Below, in pieces: positions 35,150 to 52,843 of a stretch of DNA of 64,000 nucleotides (positions within the stretch are counted from its first letter, which is position 1; every line of letters begins with the position of its first letter). A program made the translations under genes and the position numbers. Under the pieces are notes generated by a model, which saw only the letters and a program-made list of their open reading frames with translations, made no database searches and was not told the origin of the DNA. Source of the stretch: a bacterium (GTDB lineage Bacteria > Bacteroidota > Ignavibacteria > SZUA-365); the NCBI GenBank assembly GCA_020444325.1, contig JAHLLD010000009.1, forward strand, positions 62,001 to 126,000, given 5' to 3'.

Positions 35150-35857
35150 TCAGGATTCGGGAGGGTTTGAGCCGGATTGCTGTGCTTTCCCCAGAGACAG
35201 CAAGTCATCAACGATACGGCCCGCCCTGTGCAGTCCGGTTGAAATCGTCTGCACGCACTGCGCCCTGACATCATCCGCGATACGGGGATCTTCGAGCAGC
35301 TGCGCGGCCGAGACCGCATAGGAGAGCGGATCGCGTAAACGGTGCGCCAAGCCTTCACTGCGTTCGCCAATGCGCGCCATGCTGCGTTCCTGCCGGAGTT
35401 CCTCCTCCAGCAGGCGCTGTTGGGTGATATCCTGTTCCATCACCAGCCAGTGTGCATCGAAGGGGAGTCCGTCACGCCGCAGCCATACGGCATGGACTAC
35501 CCGCAGGTCGCCCTTCGGGAACATGCGCTCGCTGTCACCTTCCCAGCTCACCTGCTCACGGAGCCGCTGCAGCATGGGAATGCGGAAGGCTTCAGGGAAT
35601 ACGGGCAGCGAAAGGAGTTCCTGGTCAATCAGCACCGAAGCTTCGCGCTGACAAAGCGCACACGCTGCAGGATTTATGTACTGCACCGTTCCTTTCATGG
35701 AGAGCAGCAGAATCGCCTGCGGCAGAAGATCGAGCACCGTCGCGGCGGCGTTGGAGCTGTCGAAATAGCTGGTATGTTCAATGTGTGAAGGCATGCAACA
35801 GGACAATGGCAGACGCCGTTTTTCATGCGATGGAAGGATATCAGAGATAGCGCTCAT
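35150..35857 (-). CDS. Truncated histidine kinase: PAS and HisKA only
   Basis: 235 aa. A PAS domain (about 35-145) is followed by a dimerisation helix pair with the H-box EGLAHRLRDPLSY (His172). The kinase HATPase domain is missing: the protein stops after LSLGKAQQ, and none is seen in the other frames before mrp. In the H-box the residue after His is Arg, where active kinases have Glu. The helix pair closely follows that of the 10-PAS kinase at 42673 (EGIAHELRNPLGY). Overlaps the response regulator upstream by 17 nt; an alternative ATG at 35794 would avoid this. It may receive phosphate from another kinase or act as a decoy. Confidence 0.82.
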   Translation of the reverse strand: MSAISDILPSHEKRRLPLSCCMPSHIEHTSYFDSSNAAATVLDLLPQAILLLSMKGTVQYINPAACALCQREASVLIDQELLSLPVFPEAFRIPMLQRLREQVSWEGDSERMFPKGDLRVVHAVWLRRDGLPFDAHWLVMEQDITQQRLLEEELRQERSMARIGERSEGLAHRLRDPLSYAVSAAQLLEDPRIADDVRAQCVQTISTGLHRAGRIVDDLLSLGKAQQSGSNPPES

Positions 35858-37364: not shown

Positions 37365-37694
37365 CTAGCCCACCATTGAGCTGTCTGAGTCCGTATTCAT
37401 CACCAGCGTTCTCTGTTGTACGCCATGCTTCGTGTGCAGGCGGGCGTAGCATCCCCCTGAGGGGAAGGTTTCGCCATAGAGTTTCAACTCGTGATAGCCT
37501 GGCTTCATCATTTTATGATCATAGATCGTATGGATGACCTGGCCGTAGTTGTTGTAGATTTTCAGTGACACTTCCTGCGCTTCCTCCAACGTGAACGTCA
37601 ATGTCGCACTCGGATTCAGCGGGTAGGCGTACTGTGAAAATGAAAAAGGGATTTCCATTGCTGCTTCACTGCTCCGTTCCAGGCTGTTTCGCAT
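37365..37694 (-). CDS. Stand-alone T9SS sorting-domain-like protein (cassette 1)
   Basis: 109 aa. Start at 37694 is fixed by GAGGA about 10 nt upstream and by alignment with its duplicate at 40048, which begins at the same residue. Almost the whole chain (about 17-100) looks like a C-terminal sorting domain: YAYPLNPSATLTFTLEEA, a SLKIYNNYGQVI strand, and GGCYARL where sorting domains have SGVYIAVL, with a distinctive Cys. There is no signal peptide or carrier domain, so it should stay in the cytosol. The copies differ mostly at third codon positions, which implies purifying selection. Possible roles: decoy, chaperone or regulator for sorting; unproven. Confidence 0.8.
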   Translation of the reverse strand: MRNSLERSSEAAMEIPFSFSQYAYPLNPSATLTFTLEEAQEVSLKIYNNYGQVIHTIYDHKMMKPGYHELKLYGETFPSGGCYARLHTKHGVQQRTLVMNTDSDSSMVG

Positions 37695-37717
37695 GAGCTG
37701 TGTTCCTCGAAAAAGTT

Positions 37718-37751
37718 CACTGTGGGCGGAGACGGCGCTCCGCCCACAGTG
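37718..37751 (-). other. Intercistronic hairpin, cassette 1
   Basis: Perfect 14-bp arms CACTGTGGGCGGAG and CTCCGCCCACAGTG around ACGGCG, between the stop of the large gene (37807) and the ribosome site of the 109-aa gene. The same hairpin, shorter and with one mismatch, is found at 40410-40440. No U-run follows, so it likely stabilises RNA or attenuates the second gene. Confidence 0.7.
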
Positions 37752-37806
37752 CTGCATTTGTGCTCTACTCTCTCCACTCTCACGTGTATAGAGCACATAT
37801 ATGATC

Positions 37807-39696
37807 TTACTTGTTGAGGACGAGTTTCTGCTGCTGGACGGTACCGGCTGCTTCGAGGACGGCGATATACACGCCGCTTGGCAAGGCTGATCCTTCAAAT
37901 TCCACCGTGTGGAAGCCGGCATCGAATTCGCCGTCGACCACGGTTGCCACAACCTGACCGAAGGTGTTGTAGACCTTCAGCGATGCGTGGGCAGCTTCCT
38001 GAAGCGAGAAGCTCAGCTTCGTGCTGGGATTAAAGGGATTCGGATACGCTTCGTAAAGCTCGACGCGGTCGGCCTGTGCGCCGGTGAAAGCGTACACGAT
38101 GCCAGAGTAGTCGATCGTACCGTCACGGTCTTCCTGGCGAAGACGATAGGCGATCTGCGGCACCTCCAGGAGTCCACGATCCAGGATATCAGTGTAGTTG
38201 TAATCGAGCGGCACATTCGACGTACCCGCGCCATCAACGAAGCCAATATCTTCCCAGCTCTCGCCATCGAGCGAACGCTCGACGTAGAAGCCGTGATTGT
38301 TCAGCTCAGTCGCGGTCTGCCACTTCAGGTTAACGTTGCCGTCATAGTAACGCGCTGAGAACGAGGTCAACTCGACGGGGGGCACACCAGTGCCCTGACC
38401 AACGGAGAGGTCTCCGTAACCGGGCATGCAGGCTGCATTCGGATTGGTGTAGAGCGACTGAGGTGCCGGTGCATTCACATCAGGGTAAGGCCCGAAATTC
38501 ACGAACCAAGTACTCGCGATCTTGTAGCCATCGAACGATCCACTGATGTCCCAATAGCCACTGGAGGGTGAATCCTCAACATTCGGTCGATAGATTGCCG
38601 AATAAATCCGAGGGTCATTGCTCCGATATTTGCTATGGAAAGCGATCTGGCCCATCAATCCCGGCTCGTATGGGCCATTCGGGATTCCGGCCCCCTTTAC
38701 GGACCAGTAATACCACATTGTTGCGGCGACATTAGCCTCGGGATGCTGTGAATTATGGTTGAACACAGCGCGGACGGAAAGATAGCTGAACGGGAACGCT
38801 GAAGGTGTCGAGATGGGCCATGCCTGGCCCGGGCAGAGTCCAAGCCGGAGAATCGTGATGCCTTCTGTCGTTGACGCTCCTGTCACCGTACCAATCGGGA
38901 AATCCCAGGTACTGCCAACATTTGTGGAGGTAAACTCCTTGCAGACACGGCCCTGCGCAGGTGTGCTGATGTAGTCTCCGTTGACACAATAAAACGCGCC
39001 AGGGTCATTCGAGCCGTTGCTCGGAGATGTCGCAGCACCGATAAGATCCGCATCAATACCCAGGTACAGATTGTTGTATCCCAGCCGTACCGGGACGGCG
39101 GAGATATCGATGTCGCCAAGGAAGCACACAGGACCGGCCATAAAGTTGCCGTTCTGAATGTCTGTGACGACACCGGAACCGATATAGGTCGTGTTGGTCG
39201 TTTCGCATGCGGGCATGGAAAGCGTACCGTGCATCTCAATACCAGCTGTGCCGGTGACATTTGCATCCTCATCAACAAACATTGCACAATGCTGACCCAC
39301 GATCAGTAACCCACCCAAATCGAGGATTTGGAAGGGGGCCGGAGTCAATCCATCGCCTACGGTGATTGCTCCTGTCACGGTCAGATCTCCCCATAACGAG
39401 AGTTTCTGTACCGGCTGGACACCACCGGTGACCTGAAGTTCCGTAATGGTTACACCTGCCGACGGTGTCTGGGGAATGCGCGCAGCGGATGCATCAAGAA
39501 CAGCAATATCCGTGACGTTATTACCCGGCCACTGTCCACCCAGGGAATCGCAGGTCCAGTTGCCGGCATTATCCCATTCGTTATTGACCGTTCCGGTCCA
39601 CGTGAACGTGGCCTGTGCATTCATCTGCATTCCCAGAAAGAGAACTCCCACTATTGTGAGTGCAGAGATACGTGAAATCAGTTTCAAGGTCGACAT
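37807..39696 (-). CDS. T9SS-type surface protein, cassette 1
   Basis: 629 aa. Start at 39696 with GAGGAG. Signal peptide 1-28 (ends MNAQA). Then TFTWTGTVNNEWDNAGNW, an opening seen in many repetitive surface proteins, and a strand-rich, probably beta-helical region to about 450. Next comes a fibronectin-like segment common in this phylum (VELTSFSARYYDGNVNLKWQ, about 465-555), and a final sorting domain (YEAYPNPFNPSTKLSFSL...KLVLNK). It is predicted to be exported and attached to the surface by the type IX pathway. A sigma-54-type promoter lies upstream. No enzymatic motif was found; structural or adhesive role is likely. Confidence 0.88.
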   Translation of the reverse strand: MSTLKLISRISALTIVGVLFLGMQMNAQATFTWTGTVNNEWDNAGNWTCDSLGGQWPGNNVTDIAVLDASAARIPQTPSAGVTITELQVTGGVQPVQKLSLWGDLTVTGAITVGDGLTPAPFQILDLGGLLIVGQHCAMFVDEDANVTGTAGIEMHGTLSMPACETTNTTYIGSGVVTDIQNGNFMAGPVCFLGDIDISAVPVRLGYNNLYLGIDADLIGAATSPSNGSNDPGAFYCVNGDYISTPAQGRVCKEFTSTNVGSTWDFPIGTVTGASTTEGITILRLGLCPGQAWPISTPSAFPFSYLSVRAVFNHNSQHPEANVAATMWYYWSVKGAGIPNGPYEPGLMGQIAFHSKYRSNDPRIYSAIYRPNVEDSPSSGYWDISGSFDGYKIASTWFVNFGPYPDVNAPAPQSLYTNPNAACMPGYGDLSVGQGTGVPPVELTSFSARYYDGNVNLKWQTATELNNHGFYVERSLDGESWEDIGFVDGAGTSNVPLDYNYTDILDRGLLEVPQIAYRLRQEDRDGTIDYSGIVYAFTGAQADRVELYEAYPNPFNPSTKLSFSLQEAAHASLKVYNTFGQVVATVVDGEFDAGFHTVEFEGSALPSGVYIAVLEAAGTVQQQKLVLNK

Positions 39697-39752
39697 ATAT
39701 ACTCCTCAGCTGGACTTTCAAGTGATGTATTAATTCGCACTGCTGATATACA

Positions 39753-39768
39753 TGCATGAACCGTGCCA
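39753..39768 (-). promoter_or_regulatory. Sigma-54 (-24/-12) promoter, cassette 1
   Basis: On the minus strand TGGCACG-GTTC-ATGCA matches the consensus TGGCACG-N4-TTGCW with one mismatch and exact spacing. Start of transcription would be about 39742, giving a 46-nt leader to the ATG at 39696. Fifteen bases are identical to the promoter at 6809. Confidence 0.8.
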
Positions 39769-39949
39769 GTATTTGGAGTATTTGTACAATCATTGTCCGT
39801 ATTAAGCCGGCGAGAAACAGGGCTCGGCCTAAACGGCTAATTCTCAATGCCTTAGGTGTTTTTTTTGAAGGGTAATGCTACCGTGATCGGGAAGCAGGGA
39901 GAAAATGGAATGCAGGTGATAAGAATTCTGGGATCGATGTCACGACAAT

Positions 39950-39991
39950 ATGTATACATCGGATTGCATAGGTATGCAATCCATTGCATAC
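39950..39991. promoter_or_regulatory. Palindromic enhancer-like element, cassette 1
   Basis: ATGTATACAT (39950-39959) is followed by a perfect palindrome with 10-bp arms GGATTGCATA and TATGCAATCC around GG (39961-39982), then a third half-site ATTGCATA (39983-39990). The centre lies about 230 nt upstream of the predicted sigma-54 start. A closely similar element stands at the same place in cassette 2. Binding by a nearby NtrC-type regulator is inferred. Confidence 0.7.
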
Positions 39992-40026
39992 AAAAAAAGC
40001 CCGGTCCTCTTTTTTAAGACCGGGCT
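39992..40026 (-). terminator. Rho-independent terminator of cassette 2
   Basis: Arms AGCCCGGTC and GACCGGGCT around an 11-nt A/T-rich loop; seven T follow on the minus strand. It ends the 40048 transcript and abuts the enhancer-like element of cassette 1. Confidence 0.87.
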
Positions 40027-40047
40027 TCTCTCCTCTCTTGCTCGTTC

Positions 40048-40377
40048 CTACCCTGCAGTTGGGTCAGGATGCTCAGTGTGCATGACGAGTGTGCGCTGAA
40101 GGACACCGTGTTTTGTCTGAAGCCGGGCGTAACAGCCTCCAGCAGGGAACGTTTCGCCATACAGTTTGAGTTCGTGATAACCAGGTTTCATCATCTTCTG
40201 ATCGTATATCGTATGGATGACCTGGCCGTAATTATTGTAAATCTTCAGTGAAACTTCCTGGGCTTCTTCCAGGGTGAACGTCAAAGTTGCACTGGGATTC
40301 AGCGGATACGAGTATTGTGCGAATGAGAATGGGATTTCCATGGCTGCTTCACTGCTCCATTCGCCGGGTTCAATCAT
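40048..40377 (-). CDS. Stand-alone T9SS sorting-domain-like protein (cassette 2)
   Basis: 109 aa, the same length as its duplicate at 37365. Start at 40377 has AAGGAAA upstream. The two proteins are alike from SSEAAMEIP (8-16) to about residue 99 with roughly seven substitutions, while their DNA shows many silent changes. YSYPLNPSATLTFTLEEA, SLKIYNNYGQVI and GGCYARL are kept. The short N-terminus and last ten residues are the variable parts. No signal peptide. A single-domain, non-exported copy of a sorting domain is unusual; function unknown. Confidence 0.8.
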   Translation of the reverse strand: MIEPGEWSSEAAMEIPFSFAQYSYPLNPSATLTFTLEEAQEVSLKIYNNYGQVIHTIYDQKMMKPGYHELKLYGETFPAGGCYARLQTKHGVLQRTLVMHTEHPDPTAG

Positions 40378-40409
40378 GAAGTCTGTTTCCTTGGGTCGCG
40401 AAAAAATCT

Positions 40410-40440
40410 GCTGTGGGCGAAGCTGCCCTCCGCCCACAGC
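40410..40440 (-). other. Intercistronic hairpin, cassette 2
   Basis: Arms GCTGTGGGC and GCCCACAGC, extended inward with one mismatch, between the large gene stop (40467) and the ribosome site of the 109-aa gene. It is the counterpart of 37718-37751. Confidence 0.65.
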
Positions 40441-40466
40441 ATGTGAATTGTGCTCTCTCTCCACTC

Positions 40467-42332
40467 TCACTTATTGAGCACAAGTTTCTGTTGTTGCACA
40501 GTACCGGCTGCATCGAGCACTGCGATATACACACCGCTCGGCAGAGTCGATCCTTCAAATTCAACCGTGTGGAAACCAGCTTCAAACTCGCCGTCGACGA
40601 CGGTGGCAACCAGCTGTCCGAACGTATTGTAGACCTGCAGTGTTGCGTGCGAGGACTCCTGCAGCGAGAAGCTCAGCTTCGTGCTGGGATTGAAAGGATT
40701 CGGATACGCTTCGTAAAGCTCGACGCGGTCAGCCTGTGCGCCGGTGAACGCGTACACGATGCCAGAGTAGTCGATTGTACCGTCACGGTCTTCCTGACGA
40801 AGGCGGTATGCAATCTGGGGCAATCCTTTAAGGCTCCGGTCCAGAATATCCGTGTAGTTGTAATCGATAGGTGCATTCGACGTCCCAGCGCCGTCGACAA
40901 AGTCAATATCTTCCCAGCTCTCGCCATCAATCGAACGCTCGACATGGAAGCCGTGGTTGTTCAGCTCGGTCTCCGTCCGCCACTTGAGCTGGACATTCCC
41001 ATCATAGTAACGGGCGCTGAACGAAGTCAGCTCGACCGGGGGAACCCCAGTTCCCTGGCCAACGGAGATGTCTCCATATCCTGGCATACAGCTTGCGCTT
41101 GGGTCGTAGTAGCCCACTTTCTTGTTGGGATCTTCATATGGTCCGAAATTCACGTACCATGTATCCGAAATTTTGTACCCATCGAATGATCCGTTAATAT
41201 CCCAGTAAGCGGGATCAGGCTGATCTTCGACATTCGGCCGGTAAATGGCTGTATATATGCGGGGATCGTTGCTTCGATACTTCGCATGAAATGCCACCTG
41301 TCCCATCAAACCTGGGTCCACAGGCACTCCAGCGCCTTTCACTGACCAATAATACCACATAGTTGCGGCAACATTTGCGGCGGGATGTTGGGAGTTGTGG
41401 TTGAAGACTGCGCGAACTGAGAGATAATTGAAGGGGAACGCAGACGGAGAATCGAATGTCCCATATTCATACGTGCAAATTCCGAGCGTGAGGAGCGTGA
41501 TGCCCTCTGTCGTTGTCGCACTCGTCACTGTTCCAATCGGGAACGTGAAGACTTGATCTGCCTGGGTAAATTCCTTGCAGATCCGTCCTTGAGGCGGGTT
41601 GCTAATGTAGTCGCCATTTTCGCAGTAGATAGCACCAGGAGCGTCTGAACCATTGCCAGCGTCGCTGGCGGCTCCAAGCAAATGCGCATTTACGCCTAGA
41701 TACATATTATTATATCCAAGTCGAACTGGCACTGTAGAAATGTCGATATCGCCAAGGAAGCACACAGGACCGACCATAAAGTTGCCGTTCTGAATGTCTG
41801 TGACGACACCGGAACCGATATACGTCGTGTTGGTCGTTTCGCATGCGGGCATGGAAAGCGTACCGTGCATCTCAATACCAGCTGTGCCGGTGACATTTGC
41901 ATCCTCATCAACAAACATTGCACAATGCTGACCCACGATCAGTAACCCACCCAAATCGAGGATTTGGAAGGGGGCCGGAGTCAATCCATCGCCTACGGTG
42001 ATTGCTCCTGTCACGGTCAGATTTCCCCATAACGTGAGTTTCTGTACCGGCTGGACACCACCGGTGACCTGGAGTTCCGTAATGGTTACACCTGCCGACG
42101 GTGTCTGGGGAGTGCGCCCCACAGATGCGTCAAGAACAGCAATATCCGTGACGTTATTACCCGGCCACTGCCCACCCAGGGAATCGCATTTCCAGTTGCC
42201 GGCATTATCCCATTCGTTATTGGCCGTTCCGGTCCACGTGAACGTAGCCTGCGCATTCATCTGCATTCCAAGAAGGATGACTCCCACAAGAATGAGCGCG
42301 GACATTCGGGAAATCAGTTTCAACGTTGACAT
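40467..42332 (-). CDS. T9SS-type surface protein, cassette 2
   Basis: 621 aa from ATG 42332 with GAGGAGA; a frame to 42461 crosses the promoter and is rejected. Same architecture as the protein at 37807: signal peptide (ends MNAQA), TFTWTGTANNEWDNAGNW, beta-rich body, fibronectin-like segment (VELTSFSARYYDGNVQLKW) and sorting domain (YPNPFNPSTKLSFSLQE...KLVLNK). Residues about 20-190 are nearly identical to the other copy; residues about 200-420 vary in sequence and length. The variable middle with constant ends suggests diversifying exposed parts on a conserved export frame. Confidence 0.88.
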   Translation of the reverse strand: MSTLKLISRMSALILVGVILLGMQMNAQATFTWTGTANNEWDNAGNWKCDSLGGQWPGNNVTDIAVLDASVGRTPQTPSAGVTITELQVTGGVQPVQKLTLWGNLTVTGAITVGDGLTPAPFQILDLGGLLIVGQHCAMFVDEDANVTGTAGIEMHGTLSMPACETTNTTYIGSGVVTDIQNGNFMVGPVCFLGDIDISTVPVRLGYNNMYLGVNAHLLGAASDAGNGSDAPGAIYCENGDYISNPPQGRICKEFTQADQVFTFPIGTVTSATTTEGITLLTLGICTYEYGTFDSPSAFPFNYLSVRAVFNHNSQHPAANVAATMWYYWSVKGAGVPVDPGLMGQVAFHAKYRSNDPRIYTAIYRPNVEDQPDPAYWDINGSFDGYKISDTWYVNFGPYEDPNKKVGYYDPSASCMPGYGDISVGQGTGVPPVELTSFSARYYDGNVQLKWRTETELNNHGFHVERSIDGESWEDIDFVDGAGTSNAPIDYNYTDILDRSLKGLPQIAYRLRQEDRDGTIDYSGIVYAFTGAQADRVELYEAYPNPFNPSTKLSFSLQESSHATLQVYNTFGQLVATVVDGEFEAGFHTVEFEGSTLPSGVYIAVLDAAGTVQQQKLVLNK

Positions 42333-42389
42333 AATGTTCTCCTCAGCTTTAGCTATCAAGCAACGGTTGTTTCCAATCGCTACAGATGA

Positions 42390-42405
42390 TGCACAATCCG
42401 TGCCA
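42390..42405 (-). promoter_or_regulatory. Sigma-54 (-24/-12) promoter, cassette 2
   Basis: On the minus strand TGGCACG-GATT-GTGCA has the exact sigma-54 register, with one mismatch to TGGCACG-N4-TTGCW. Predicted start about 42379, 47 nt before the ATG, matching cassette 1. Confidence 0.78.
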
Positions 42406-42600: not shown

Positions 42601-42642
42601 ATGTATACAACGTATTGCATAACTATGCAATTCGTTGAATAG
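42601..42642. promoter_or_regulatory. Palindromic enhancer-like element, cassette 2
   Basis: ATGTATACA, then an inverted repeat (42608-42637) with core arms ATTGCATA and TATGCAAT around AC and outer arms CAACG and CGTTG, then GTTGAATA as a degenerate third half-site. It aligns over 42 positions with 39950-39991; both outer arms differ from cassette 1 yet keep pairing. Centre about 243 nt upstream of the predicted start. Confidence 0.7.
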
Positions 42643-47729: not shown

Positions 47730-49142
47730 TCAGCCGTTCGGATTCTGCAAATCGTATTCGTTGATTTTCGACAGCAGCGTGTTGTACGCAACCTGCAGGA
47801 CACGTGCGGTCTTCGCTTTGTTCCAGTTCGTGGTGTTCAGGGTTTCCAGAATGATCTGGCGTTCGACCTGGGCGATGTGCTTTTTGACATGGTCCTTCAG
47901 TGCCGCGCCCTCTTCGAGCCGCGGTATGGGAGCACTGCCCGGGTTTGGAGTGCCTGGGACGGTTCCATCCATGAATTCGAGGTGTTCGAGTTCCACGACC
48001 TCCGATGCCTGCAGCACGCTCGAGCGAACAGTGGAGCGGAGCTGACGCACATTACCCGGCCACTCGAACATGATAAGAGCATCCATTGCAGCTGCCGAGC
48101 ATCCCTTCACCTGCTTACCGAGTTCCTTGTTCGTCTGTTCGATGAACTTATCAACCAGGAACGGGATGTCACCTTTCCTCTCACGCAGCGCAGGGACATG
48201 GATGGAAAATTCCTTCAACCGGTAGTAGAGGTCCGCGCGGAAATCTTTCTTTTCAATCAGCGATTGCAACTCCGTATTGCTTGCTGCGATGACACGGACA
48301 TCGATACTGATGGACGTTCCCCCGCCGACACGGAAAATGGCACGATCCTGCAGCGCACGCAGCAGCTTGGCCTGCGAAGCCCAGGACATATTTGGCACCT
48401 CATCGAGAAATATCGTCCCACCCTGCGCGAGTTCGAATTTTCCTTTTTTCTGATTCTTCGCGTCGGTAAACGCCCCCTCTTCGTGACCGAAAAGCTCACT
48501 TTCGAGCAGAGCCTCGGGGATTGCACCACAGTCGACAGGAATGAACGGCTTGTCAGCTCTCCCGCTCATGCTATGGATGGCGCGTGCAATAAGCTCTTTT
48601 CCCGTTCCTGTTTCTCCCGTAATCAGCACGTCGAAATTGCTCTTCGCCACTTTCCTTGTGCGCGCGGCAAGTTCTGTGATGACCTCACTGGTCCCCATGT
48701 CATGCAGAATGGGATCCTGCTGGGAATCACCACCTCCATTGTTCTGTACGTTGAAAAGGTCAGTGCGCGGCTTGTTCCGCTTTACCGCCTCCCCGACGAC
48801 GCGGAGAAGTTCATCATTGTGAAAAGGCTTGGCGATGTAGTCGAAGGCGCCATCACGCATAGCGTCTACAGCGCCCGTGACACCGGCCATGGCGGTCATG
48901 AGAATGACGGGGAAGGTATCGTCTATCGTTTTTACACGACGAAGGACCTCCATCCCTGTCAGTCCGGGCATGATGATATCCATGAGCAACACGTCCGGGA
49001 GGCGGTCACTTATCAGTTTCAGCGCCTGCTCGCCATTGGAGGCCGTTCGTACCGCGTAGCCCGCGTCCTCGAACACGCCCCCCAGCACCAGGCACATCAT
49101 TTCTTCATCGTCGACGATCAGTATTTCGTCCTTTGGAGGCAT
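47730..49142 (-). CDS. NtrC-family sigma-54-dependent response regulator
   Basis: 470 aa. Receiver (1-120; phospho-acceptor Asp55, KPF at 106-108), AAA+ domain with Walker A GETGTGKE (176-183), loop GAFTDA (223-228) in place of GAFTGA, Walker B IFLDEV, sensor I AASN, and a Fis-type HTH (NWNKAKTARVLQVAYNTLLSKINEY). All ATPase elements are intact. The G-to-D change in the loop is unusual. Strong GAGGG at the start. Together with the 10-PAS kinase it is the best candidate to activate the sigma-54-type promoters of the neighbouring cassettes. Confidence 0.94.
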   Translation of the reverse strand: MPPKDEILIVDDEEMMCLVLGGVFEDAGYAVRTASNGEQALKLISDRLPDVLLMDIIMPGLTGMEVLRRVKTIDDTFPVILMTAMAGVTGAVDAMRDGAFDYIAKPFHNDELLRVVGEAVKRNKPRTDLFNVQNNGGGDSQQDPILHDMGTSEVITELAARTRKVAKSNFDVLITGETGTGKELIARAIHSMSGRADKPFIPVDCGAIPEALLESELFGHEEGAFTDAKNQKKGKFELAQGGTIFLDEVPNMSWASQAKLLRALQDRAIFRVGGGTSISIDVRVIAASNTELQSLIEKKDFRADLYYRLKEFSIHVPALRERKGDIPFLVDKFIEQTNKELGKQVKGCSAAAMDALIMFEWPGNVRQLRSTVRSSVLQASEVVELEHLEFMDGTVPGTPNPGSAPIPRLEEGAALKDHVKKHIAQVERQIILETLNTTNWNKAKTARVLQVAYNTLLSKINEYDLQNPNG

Positions 49143-50092: not shown

Positions 50093-50790
50093 AAACGCAA
50101 CAGTATCTCCGCCTCATTCTTTTCGATATTGATGGTACGCTGATCTCGACAAACGGCATCGCCCGCACGACTTTCGCCGAAGCATTGGACGAAGCGCTGC
50201 AGCGTACAAGCGCTGCGAAGGAATATGATCTCGCGGGAAAAACTGATCAGCAGATTTATACGGACATCATGCGGGCATCGGGTGCGGATGACACGCAGAT
50301 CAGCGAGCTTCGCGAAAAAACGTTCGATACCTTCTTCAGACTGCTCGAACAGCGTCTCAACCGTGACAACGTGACCGTACTCCCCGGCGTTCGGGAGCTC
50401 CTCGCCGCTCTCGCCGTTGAACAGGTCGCCACCGTTGCACTGCTGACAGGCAACATGCTGCAGGGAGCGCGTATCAAGCTTACGCCGCCGGAACTGCTGC
50501 AGCATTTCACTTTCGGCGCCTTTGGCAACGACGCGTTTCACCGGCATGAACTGCCGGCAATCGCCGCAGCGCGCGCATATGACCGAACCGGTGCCACCTT
50601 CAAGGCAAAAGACATTGTGATTATCGGCGACACCCCGCATGACATCGATTGCGGACGGCATCTGAACGTGCGGAGCATCGGCGTCGCCTCCGGAGGTTAC
50701 AGTTATGATGAACTCGCAAAACACAAACCGGATCACTGTTTCGAGGATCTCACCGACATCGACAGGCTGTTCAGCGCGATCTTCGATTAA
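50089..50790 (+). CDS. HAD-superfamily phosphatase (phosphoglycolate phosphatase-like)
   Basis: 233 aa. Motif I DIDGT (13-17), a helical cap (about 22-90), motif II LLTGN, motif III Lys in the FKAKDIVIIGDTPHDIDCG segment that also provides the motif IV aspartates. Layout fits Gph/PGMB-type HAD hydrolases. Substrate is not predictable. Its last 86 nt are overlapped by the start of the lectin-like gene in another frame, and its codons include that gene's GGAGG ribosome site. Confidence 0.92.
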   Translation: MKTQQYLRLILFDIDGTLISTNGIARTTFAEALDEALQRTSAAKEYDLAGKTDQQIYTDIMRASGADDTQISELREKTFDTFFRLLEQRLNRDNVTVLPGVRELLAALAVEQVATVALLTGNMLQGARIKLTPPELLQHFTFGAFGNDAFHRHELPAIAAARAYDRTGATFKAKDIVIIGDTPHDIDCGRHLNVRSIGVASGGYSYDELAKHKPDHCFEDLTDIDRLFSAIFD

Positions 50791-52843
50791 CCTGCTGCAG
50801 CTGCCCGCTCCGCTGCTCCTGCTCGCTCTGCTGTTGTTCCTGCCAGGGGTGACCGCAGCTCAGGCCCCGCTCCCATGGAGAAGCAACATCTGGGAGGAGG
50901 ATTTCAGCAGCTTCGACGCCGGCAGCTATTTCCTCGGCACCAACAGCCGTCATGATGCGGCAAACGGGAATTTCATCCTCACCCCGGAGGAGCCCGCGCA
51001 GGCAGGACGCCTCTACCTCTTGCGGCGGCTTCCCATCAATACATTCGATTTGAGCTTCCGTGCGCGCTTCGGCGTCAACACGCCGGCGAATCAGAGCGGT
51101 GCCGACGGCATCGCCTTCGTCATGGGCGCTGTGTACGATTATCCTTCCGCGGGAGGAGGGACGCTGAACTTCGACGGCTGTGTGGGATTCGGAATGGAGT
51201 TCGACACATACGAAAATTCGGGGCAGAACGATCCGTCGCAGGAACATATCGCCCTGTTGCGGGATCGCGCCGATAATCACCTTCAATACGAAACGCTCGT
51301 ACCGGGCACGCTTGAAGACGGCAATTGGCACACATTGCAGGTGCGTTTCCACGACGGCTACATCGAAGGCTGGATCGATGGTGTCCGTCGCCTCAATACG
51401 TCAATTCTTAATTTCTTCCCTTACGATGGATACTTCGGCTTCACCGCTGCTACCGGCTCCGCGTTCAACGAACACCGGATCGATGACATCAGCCTCTCCG
51501 CGCCGACGCGGATTTCAATGAATGCCGGGACACACAACGTCTGTGAACCTGTCATCATTGACACGTCGCTTCTGCTGCTCAACAATCACCCGTCGAACGA
51601 AGTCCTGACGATCACCGATGTATCGCTTGACGGCGATGTGGACGTCTTCAATCTCGCACCGGTTTCGCTGCCCCTGAATGTGGGACCCGGTCTAACCCAC
51701 GAACTTCCGCTTCAGATTCAACTTGACCGCGAAGGATTGTTTTCCGCCATACTCACCTGTGTCTCCCAGCGCGGGGAACGGATTTATGACACGTTGCGCA
51801 TTCGCGGCACCTTGCCGCGCCTCACGTTCAATCCCTCGTCGTACGCCTTCGCAACCACTGCAACGGGAAGCAGCCGTACTGCTACGGTTTCACTACGCAA
51901 TACCGGCGCGGTAGCTGTCGATCTCGAAGGATTGTCACTTCCCACCGGAATGTTCTCTGTGCTATCCCCGGTGAGCTTTCCCGTGCACATCGCTCCCGGC
52001 GCACAGCTGCAGGTGCAACTGCAGTTTTTACCATCACGCAGCGGAACGTTCACCGATACACTGCACATCGTCAACAGCTGCGGTGCGTTCAATACACTGC
52101 TGCTTCTCGGCGAAGCTGAGGATGATCGTATCGCTTTTTCATTTCAGCCACGCACCCTGCTGCTTCAGCCCGGTGGCAATGATGAGATTTACCTCCACAT
52201 CGACAGTCTGCCACGCTTCACCGGAATTCGGCAGCTGGAACTGTACATCAGCTTCCCGAATGCGCATACCAACCTGGGCGGTTCAGGAAAGGTGGACGGC
52301 ACCCTGCCGCCGGGCAGCGACACACAGCAGCTGGCGGTGGAATGGGGCAGCCCGGGATTCGTACATACGAGGTTGACGCTCCCCAGCGTCCTGGACGATA
52401 CCGGCGCCGTGTTTTCCCTGCTATTCCTTGGCGCAATGGCGAGTCCTCCCTGCGACAGTATCACGCTCGACAGCGTCCGTATCAATGATGGAATGATGCT
52501 GTATCCCGGAACAGCGCTCCTTGTGCAGAACGGCCGTATCTGCGTAAACGGGTCCTGCAGACACCCGGAAGGACTTGTGGCACTTCCCCTCCCCGAAATG
52601 CTTGTCTCCCCGCATCCGCTCGCATCGGGCAGCACGGTACACATCACGCTGCCGGACCAGGGGATGGTTCGTCTGCGGCTCAGGGACCTACTCGGCCGCT
52701 CACGAGCAAACATCCTGCATACGACCCTGCCCGGTGGAGAACATGTCGCCACCCTGCCGGTCGATGATCTCCCTGCGGGGTGCTACATGCTGGAGCTGCA
52801 GTGGAATGAGCATACAGTTCTGCAGCCGGTACTGATGCCCTAG
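50705..52843 (+). CDS. Secreted L-type lectin-like protein with Ig-like domains
   Basis: 712 aa. Although it overlaps the HAD gene by 86 nt, the start at 50705 (or 50708) has GGAGG at ideal spacing and no other start precedes the signal helix (LLLLALLLFLPGVTAA, about 37-52). Residues about 60-275 form a bacterial legume-lectin-type domain (GADGIAFVM, GFGMEFDTYEN, HTLQVRF, GYFGFTAATG). Two choice-of-anchor/ASPM-like beta domains follow (280-480), then a cohesin-like region (490-630) and a sorting-like C-terminus (VRLRLRDLLGRSRANIL). Likely binds glycans at the cell surface. Confidence 0.87.
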   Translation: MMNSQNTNRITVSRISPTSTGCSARSSINLLQLPAPLLLLALLLFLPGVTAAQAPLPWRSNIWEEDFSSFDAGSYFLGTNSRHDAANGNFILTPEEPAQAGRLYLLRRLPINTFDLSFRARFGVNTPANQSGADGIAFVMGAVYDYPSAGGGTLNFDGCVGFGMEFDTYENSGQNDPSQEHIALLRDRADNHLQYETLVPGTLEDGNWHTLQVRFHDGYIEGWIDGVRRLNTSILNFFPYDGYFGFTAATGSAFNEHRIDDISLSAPTRISMNAGTHNVCEPVIIDTSLLLLNNHPSNEVLTITDVSLDGDVDVFNLAPVSLPLNVGPGLTHELPLQIQLDREGLFSAILTCVSQRGERIYDTLRIRGTLPRLTFNPSSYAFATTATGSSRTATVSLRNTGAVAVDLEGLSLPTGMFSVLSPVSFPVHIAPGAQLQVQLQFLPSRSGTFTDTLHIVNSCGAFNTLLLLGEAEDDRIAFSFQPRTLLLQPGGNDEIYLHIDSLPRFTGIRQLELYISFPNAHTNLGGSGKVDGTLPPGSDTQQLAVEWGSPGFVHTRLTLPSVLDDTGAVFSLLFLGAMASPPCDSITLDSVRINDGMMLYPGTALLVQNGRICVNGSCRHPEGLVALPLPEMLVSPHPLASGSTVHITLPDQGMVRLRLRDLLGRSRANILHTTLPGGEHVATLPVDDLPAGCYMLELQWNEHTVLQPVLMP

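Follow-up and report, generated by a model that had tools for sequence, protein, structure and literature searches.

Why should a bacterium retain a secretion sorting domain that has no evident means of reaching the sorting machinery on its own? This question is raised by two small genes located in the window, by which we refer to the entire stretch of 64,000 nucleotides analysed here. An initial annotation had described their products as 109-residue proteins which consist almost only of a T9SS sorting-domain-like fold and lack a signal peptide, and had suggested that they might mimic or shield the sorting domain of the cargo, control translation or act as a fold-specific chaperone. How cargo production is coupled to export in the T9SS is poorly understood; PorXY-SigP is known and the PorA link is unexplained.

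Reading frames and selection

The two genes belong to two cassettes, a and b, in each of which the unit of cargo gene, hairpin and small gene is preceded by a palindrome and a sigma54-type promoter:

37365 to 37694, minus strand: small gene copy a, sorting-domain-like, stand-alone, 109 codons, or fewer if translation begins at 37658 (MEIPF)
40048 to 40377, minus strand: small gene copy b, sorting-domain-like, stand-alone, 109 codons, or fewer if translation begins at 40341
37807 to 39696, minus strand: cargo a, 629 aa, with N-terminal signal-peptide-like segment and C-terminal T9SS sorting domain (residues 551-627)
40467 to 42356, minus strand: cargo b, start MSTLK (42356); a longer frame to 42461 would include the promoter
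37718 to 37751, minus strand: GC-rich hairpin with T-run between cargo a and small gene a, terminator-like or attenuator
40409 to 40441, minus strand: hairpin of the same type between cargo b and small gene b, from folding

Both frames of 109 codons are present on the minus strand as had been described, each of them behind a T9SS cargo gene, although the true start is possibly Met13 (MEIPF), in which case the proteins would be shorter than claimed. In genome G006 and in copy G009b MEIPF is the only possible start because a stop codon is found 1 to 5 codons upstream. Hence, in these two cases the small protein starts with the domain itself, and a hidden leader or a frameshift fusion is impossible. 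The small gene of G008 necessarily starts further upstream than MEIPF, and the other copies bear a hydrophilic, variable extension of up to about 20 residues ahead of it. In cassette b the small frame closes 3 nt inside the cargo stop and in cassette a it overlaps the 3' end of the cargo gene. The possibility, raised along with the initial description, that the small frame is a frameshifted part of the cargo was checked and did not hold, as the upstream frames are closed by stop codons in cassette b, G006 and G009b; the small protein is thereby ruled out as a product of frameshifting or readthrough from the cargo gene.

The cores of the small proteins a and b are 91% identical, the amino-acid differences being concentrated in the first seven and the last eight residues, and the changes within the core are nearly all silent. 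Counting according to NG86 yields 53.9 synonymous differences over 70.7 sites, which is saturated, and 29.1 nonsynonymous differences over 256.3 sites (dN 0.12; 0.096 from Met13 onward). These counts, together with a pairwise codon model, bear out that the two genes differ mainly at silent positions and are subject to purifying selection; the Ka/Ks ratio, whose calculation had been proposed as a check, is far from neutral and neutrality is strongly rejected. Across the family, omega = 1 is rejected in all eight small-gene pairs tested (pairwise codon model, 2dlnL 43 to 143), and omega ranges from 0.004 to 0.127 in those pairs whose dS is unsaturated. A neutral relic is ruled out by these selection tests.

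Homology and fold

The likeness of the small proteins to sorting domains turned out to be real, though remote. Single-sequence scans of Pfam and NCBIfam match FlgD_ig, CHU_C and Por_Secre_tail at 13 to 16 bits, below the curated cut-offs. Against TIGR04183 (cut-off 23) the small proteins score 14.9 to 15.2 bits, compared with 35.5 bits for the sorting domain of cargo a, and against PF18962 (Por_Secre_tail, cut-off 27) the small protein reaches 12.9 bits. When a profile of the 13 small copies found in relatives and in the window (see below) was aligned to ten sorting domains from adjacent cargos, hhalign gave a probability of 99.4% and 39% identity, which makes the homology to the sorting domain of the adjacent cargo certain. 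When a tree was built from the small copies together with the domains of the adjacent cargos and 23 further sorting domains encoded in the genome, all 13 small copies grouped in a single clade with full support (100/100), separate from the rest, indicating a single origin followed by a long stem of change. The best reading of these sequence comparisons is that the small protein would represent a sorting domain copied once from the cargo.

The predicted structure of the small protein is a seven-stranded Ig-like sandwich (pLDDT 81.6, pTM 0.71). Regarding the structural comparison with T9SS C-terminal domains (CTDs) proposed initially, the expected CTD-type Ig-like fold of seven strands is thus predicted, whereas the fold search is unspecific. 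The hits returned by Foldseek are generic beta-sandwiches whose scores are tied; among them, the CTD of RemZ (chain 8gl8_D, F. johnsoniae translocon) is a weak match at rank 21, and no T9SS CTD is found among the top 50 of a second fold comparison. Since the matches are generic and their scores tied, the fold search says little about function. No solved structure is related to the small protein by sequence at E<=1.

Loss of export features and an invariant cysteine

With the T9SS type A CTD (TIGR04183/PF18962) the small protein shares the seven-stranded Ig-like fold and the homology expressed in 39% identity to the adjacent cargo domain. It differs in that it stands alone, with neither leader nor cargo, stays below the curated scores, lacks PNPF as well as both terminal lysines and contains an invariant cysteine. 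As had been claimed, a signal peptide is absent; no hydrophobic segment was found (maximum KD19 0.19), and none of the upstream extensions of the small copies is hydrophobic. Both lysines of the cargo motif K-LVLN-K are replaced in 13 of 13 small copies, the first one by T, S or N and the last one by T, S or A, and the PNPF motif of the cargo domains is lost from every copy. In P. gingivalis the C-terminal strand is required for sorting, yet tails are tolerated (PMC11285876). From the missing leader we infer that the small protein is likely cytoplasmic and cut off from the sorting machinery. The cysteine within CYARL, whose retention had been pointed out for the two copies of the window, is present in all 13 small copies, while it is lacking from all 25 further sorting domains of this genome that could be read at that position. 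No partner cysteine is conserved in the small proteins. Taken as sequence evidence, these data support the view that the small gene encodes a paralogue of the sorting domain which is leaderless, conserved and subject to strong purifying selection.

Distribution

The small gene occurs in 13 copies in seven genomes of the same family-level lineage, the named relatives of which are uncultured Ignavibacteria/Bacteroidetes MAGs. The search for it behind T9SS cargo genes elsewhere, which had been proposed initially, found it in these seven genomes of the family and in no others among the 391 genomes of the class searched (E<=1e-15), where only much weaker matches to cargo domains were obtained. All 13 copies sit behind a cargo gene, which in one case is a cargo remnant. 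Viral contigs contain no relative of the small gene, and a viral origin is unsupported. The genome carries SprA, PorU and RpoN as well as at least 150 T9SS sorting domains, all of which reside in frames of at least 179 codons, so that the stand-alone form is exceptional in this T9SS-rich genome. Among open-licence papers we found no leaderless stand-alone T9SS CTD. While the fold is known, its deployment as a leaderless stand-alone sorting domain is new.

Genomic neighbourhood and control region

The cassettes are flanked by genes of two-component systems, sitting between RR2-HK1 and RR1-HK2, a setting which the initial annotation had overlooked:

47730 to 49142, minus strand: RR2, NtrC-type regulator with GAFTDA loop
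42673 to 47673, minus strand: HK1, 1666 aa, receiver, multi-PAS, HisKA and HATPase, no membrane segment
35841 to 37208, minus strand: RR1, NtrC-type regulator without GAFTGA loop, Fis-type HTH kept
35150 to 35857, minus strand: HK2, PAS-HisKA, truncated (235 aa), without HATPase

The order RR2, HK1, one or two pairs of cargo and small gene, RR1, HK2 and Mrp is found wholly or partly in the relatives, where the HK2 in the corresponding position comprises 354 to 361 aa and includes HATPase. G008 has a split locus, in which two cassettes stay by HK1 and one by RR1. Orthologues of RR1 (E<1e-115) occur only in genomes which carry the small gene, and in G004, G005 and G007 HK1, the small gene and RR1 are all absent. 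In G003 and G011, which possess HK1, the contig with this gene breaks off within the cassette or ahead of it, and an assembly gap is the probable reason for the missing small gene. Neither HK1 nor HK2 has a membrane segment and, hence, their input is probably cytoplasmic. RR1 is devoid of the GAFTGA loop in all seven genomes, and its Fis-type HTH is present wherever that end has been assembled. Regulators lacking the GAFTGA loop can act independently of sigma54 (PMC10274813).

Mean identities between genera amount to 74% for Mrp, 68% for the small protein, 58% for the cargo sorting domain, 50% for HK2, 48% for RR1 and 40% for the cargo, and that of HK1 ranges from 56 to 67% (tblastn). The small protein accordingly evolves almost at a housekeeping rate and more slowly than the cargo sorting domain (68% vs 58%).

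Upstream of the cargo genes the following elements were recognised:

39753 to 39768, minus strand: sigma54-type promoter TGGCACGGTTCATGCA, 72 nt before the start of cargo a
42390 to 42405, minus strand: sigma54-type promoter TGGCACGGATTGTGCA, before cargo b
39964 to 39979, no strand assigned: palindrome TTGCATANNTATGCAA, possible binding site of an activator, some 200-210 nt ahead of the promoter
42615 to 42630, no strand assigned: the same palindrome as an exact repeat, upstream of cassette b

In most cassettes a sigma54-type box is located 70-76 nt ahead of the cargo start, and it is also found in G003; that of cargo b lies at -49 from a slightly different start. The best boxes read TGGCA(C/T)G-N5-TGC. 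The exact palindrome is present only at the two cassettes in the genome of 4.65 Mb. Its position is kept in relatives, exactly in G002 and G008c and degenerately in others, and it is not recognisable above background in G009a and G008a. With a -24/-12 box, a palindrome, rpoN and an NtrC-type activator containing a GAFTGA-like loop, the cassette has the sequence features of a sigma54 enhancer-controlled operon. Cargo and small gene are separated by a GC-rich hairpin in every cassette, the T-run being confined to the source genus; owing to this hairpin the small gene may be expressed below the level of the cargo. A second hairpin, GTGCTC...GAGCAC, whose loop is rich in GA (GTGAGAGTGGAGAGAG), lies across or behind the stop codon of the cargo gene in the cassettes of G000, G001, G002, G006, G009 and G010, and is kept though its 5' arm shifts relative to that codon. 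In the second cassette of G009 (L049 5600-6340) the cargo is deleted to its last 43 residues with the small gene being intact; this deletion may be recent, and another cargo remains in the genome.

Discussion

The small protein is probably an internal, i.e. cytoplasmic, partner or sensor and not a secretion tag. Because its neighbourhood of soluble kinases, NtrC-type regulators and a private sigma54 control region is conserved, a regulatory role is at least as likely as the mimicry or shielding, translation control or chaperone function envisaged initially, all of which are possible. Tentatively, we regard it as an exapted sorting domain which would serve as cytoplasmic partner of the two-component system, most likely reporting the status of the cargo. 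Sharing a sigma54-driven transcript with the cargo, behind the hairpin, the small protein would stand for the amount of cargo made. Its presumed partner would be either unexported cargo, contacted through the cargo domain to which it is homologous, or the soluble kinase with its regulator; such binding could couple transcription of the cassette to cargo export, with a direction of effect that is likewise presumed, as free T3SS chaperone-coactivators do. In the latter, e.g. IpgC-MxiE, transcription is controlled by a protein which also partners exported proteins in the cytoplasm; the likeness would concern the proposed logic only, fold and secretion system being unrelated. The binding steps are plausible since the isolated RgpB CTD dimerises via swapping of its C-terminal strand (PMC4804311) and PorA (PGN_0123), a CTD protein of Porphyromonas gingivalis, acts upstream of PorXY-SigP (PMC7712824), neither of which is the same system. 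It is conceivable, if doubtful, that a leaderless cytoplasmic signalling protein tells a soluble kinase/sigma54 system of cargo export in this manner, which would be a feedback device so far undescribed for the T9SS.

A role as partner of the two-component system is favoured by the linkage and co-occurrence of the small gene with HK1 and RR1, by the split locus of G008 which keeps cassettes at both the HK1 and the RR1 end, by kinases without membrane segment, and by the private palindrome and the sigma54-type box around -70 in most copies. It is also consistent with the small protein being better conserved than the cargo, the cargo domain and RR1, and with G009 having kept its gene despite the deletion of the adjacent cargo. 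The kinase linkage, however, could reflect mere control of the cassette, the deletion in G009 may be recent, and the small gene follows the cargo rather than the kinase, which a role as cargo partner fits equally well. PorA is a loose precedent. As PorA does, the small protein would feed into a two-component system, to the genes of which its own is linked and with which it co-occurs, but PorA contains a signal peptide and a FimH-like domain, resides at the surface and acts on PorXY-SigP. The small protein of about 92-109 aa has a single domain, with neither signal peptide nor additional Ig/FimH-like domain, and PorA has no linkage to NtrC/sigma54 genes. Locked to a private two-component/sigma54 module, the small gene offers a compact, testable system for the coupling of production and export, and its product would be an instance of a secretion signal domain acquiring a second role.

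The main rival to this partner role is a cytoplasmic chaperone or decoy for the cargo sorting domain which would pair with the domain of newly made cargo by strand swapping, prevent it from folding or keep it in solution up to Sec export, and take no part in transcription. We consider it somewhat unlikely. Such a function would agree with the small gene always being placed directly behind the gene of a cargo to whose sorting domain it is homologous, and with the strand swapping of isolated CTDs, for which heterodimers with other Ig-like domains are conceivable according to the authors (PMC4804311). Yet, only one cargo family has a small partner in a genome with at least 150 sorting domains, the small protein has changed far less than the domain presumed to be its client (68% vs 58% identity), and the small gene survives in G009 despite the deleted adjacent cargo, though other cargo remains there.

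Export without a classical leader, or via lysis or vesicles, and action outside the cell, e.g. as accessory subunit of the surface cargo, appears quite unlikely. Fjoh_0547 of Flavobacterium johnsoniae, by description a protein of similar size (112 aa) consisting mostly of a CTD, is secreted without SprA/PorV, and PorA is surface-located without the translocation machinery (PMC7712824). In contrast to the small protein, however, Fjoh_0547 is released into the medium and, for this reason, presumably has a leader, as PorA does have a signal peptide. Moreover, no copy of the small protein has a hydrophobic N-terminus, two begin directly with the domain, and the K-LVLN-K lysines are replaced in all 13 of them.

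Improbable, too, is a cysteine-based cytoplasmic role, in which a thiol/redox switch or a disulfide-linked dimer would inform the kinases or some other partner of the redox state. The occurrence of the CYARL cysteine in 13 of 13 copies versus 0 of 25 other sorting domains would suit it, but this invariance may be structural, and a conserved partner cysteine is lacking. That the small gene is a functionless decaying duplicate of the cargo domain, or a cargo part made by frameshifting, is extremely improbable despite its clear descent from a sorting domain and the overlap with the cargo 3' end in cassette a, given that every pair is under strong purifying selection, that 13 copies are intact in different genera and that the frames are closed upstream in cassette b, G006 and G009b.

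Two further observations concern other genes of the window. A frame of 712 aa (50705-52843), of normal length for a sorting-domain protein, ends in a sorting-like domain with GCYMLEL, whose cysteine is placed as in the small proteins. The cargo genes a and b, with an omega of 0.12 overall, are near-identical in codons 60-180 (~39135-39500 and ~41780-42150), where dS amounts to 0.02-0.08, while in the rest of these genes it is around 1 or saturated, a pattern suggestive of recent gene conversion.
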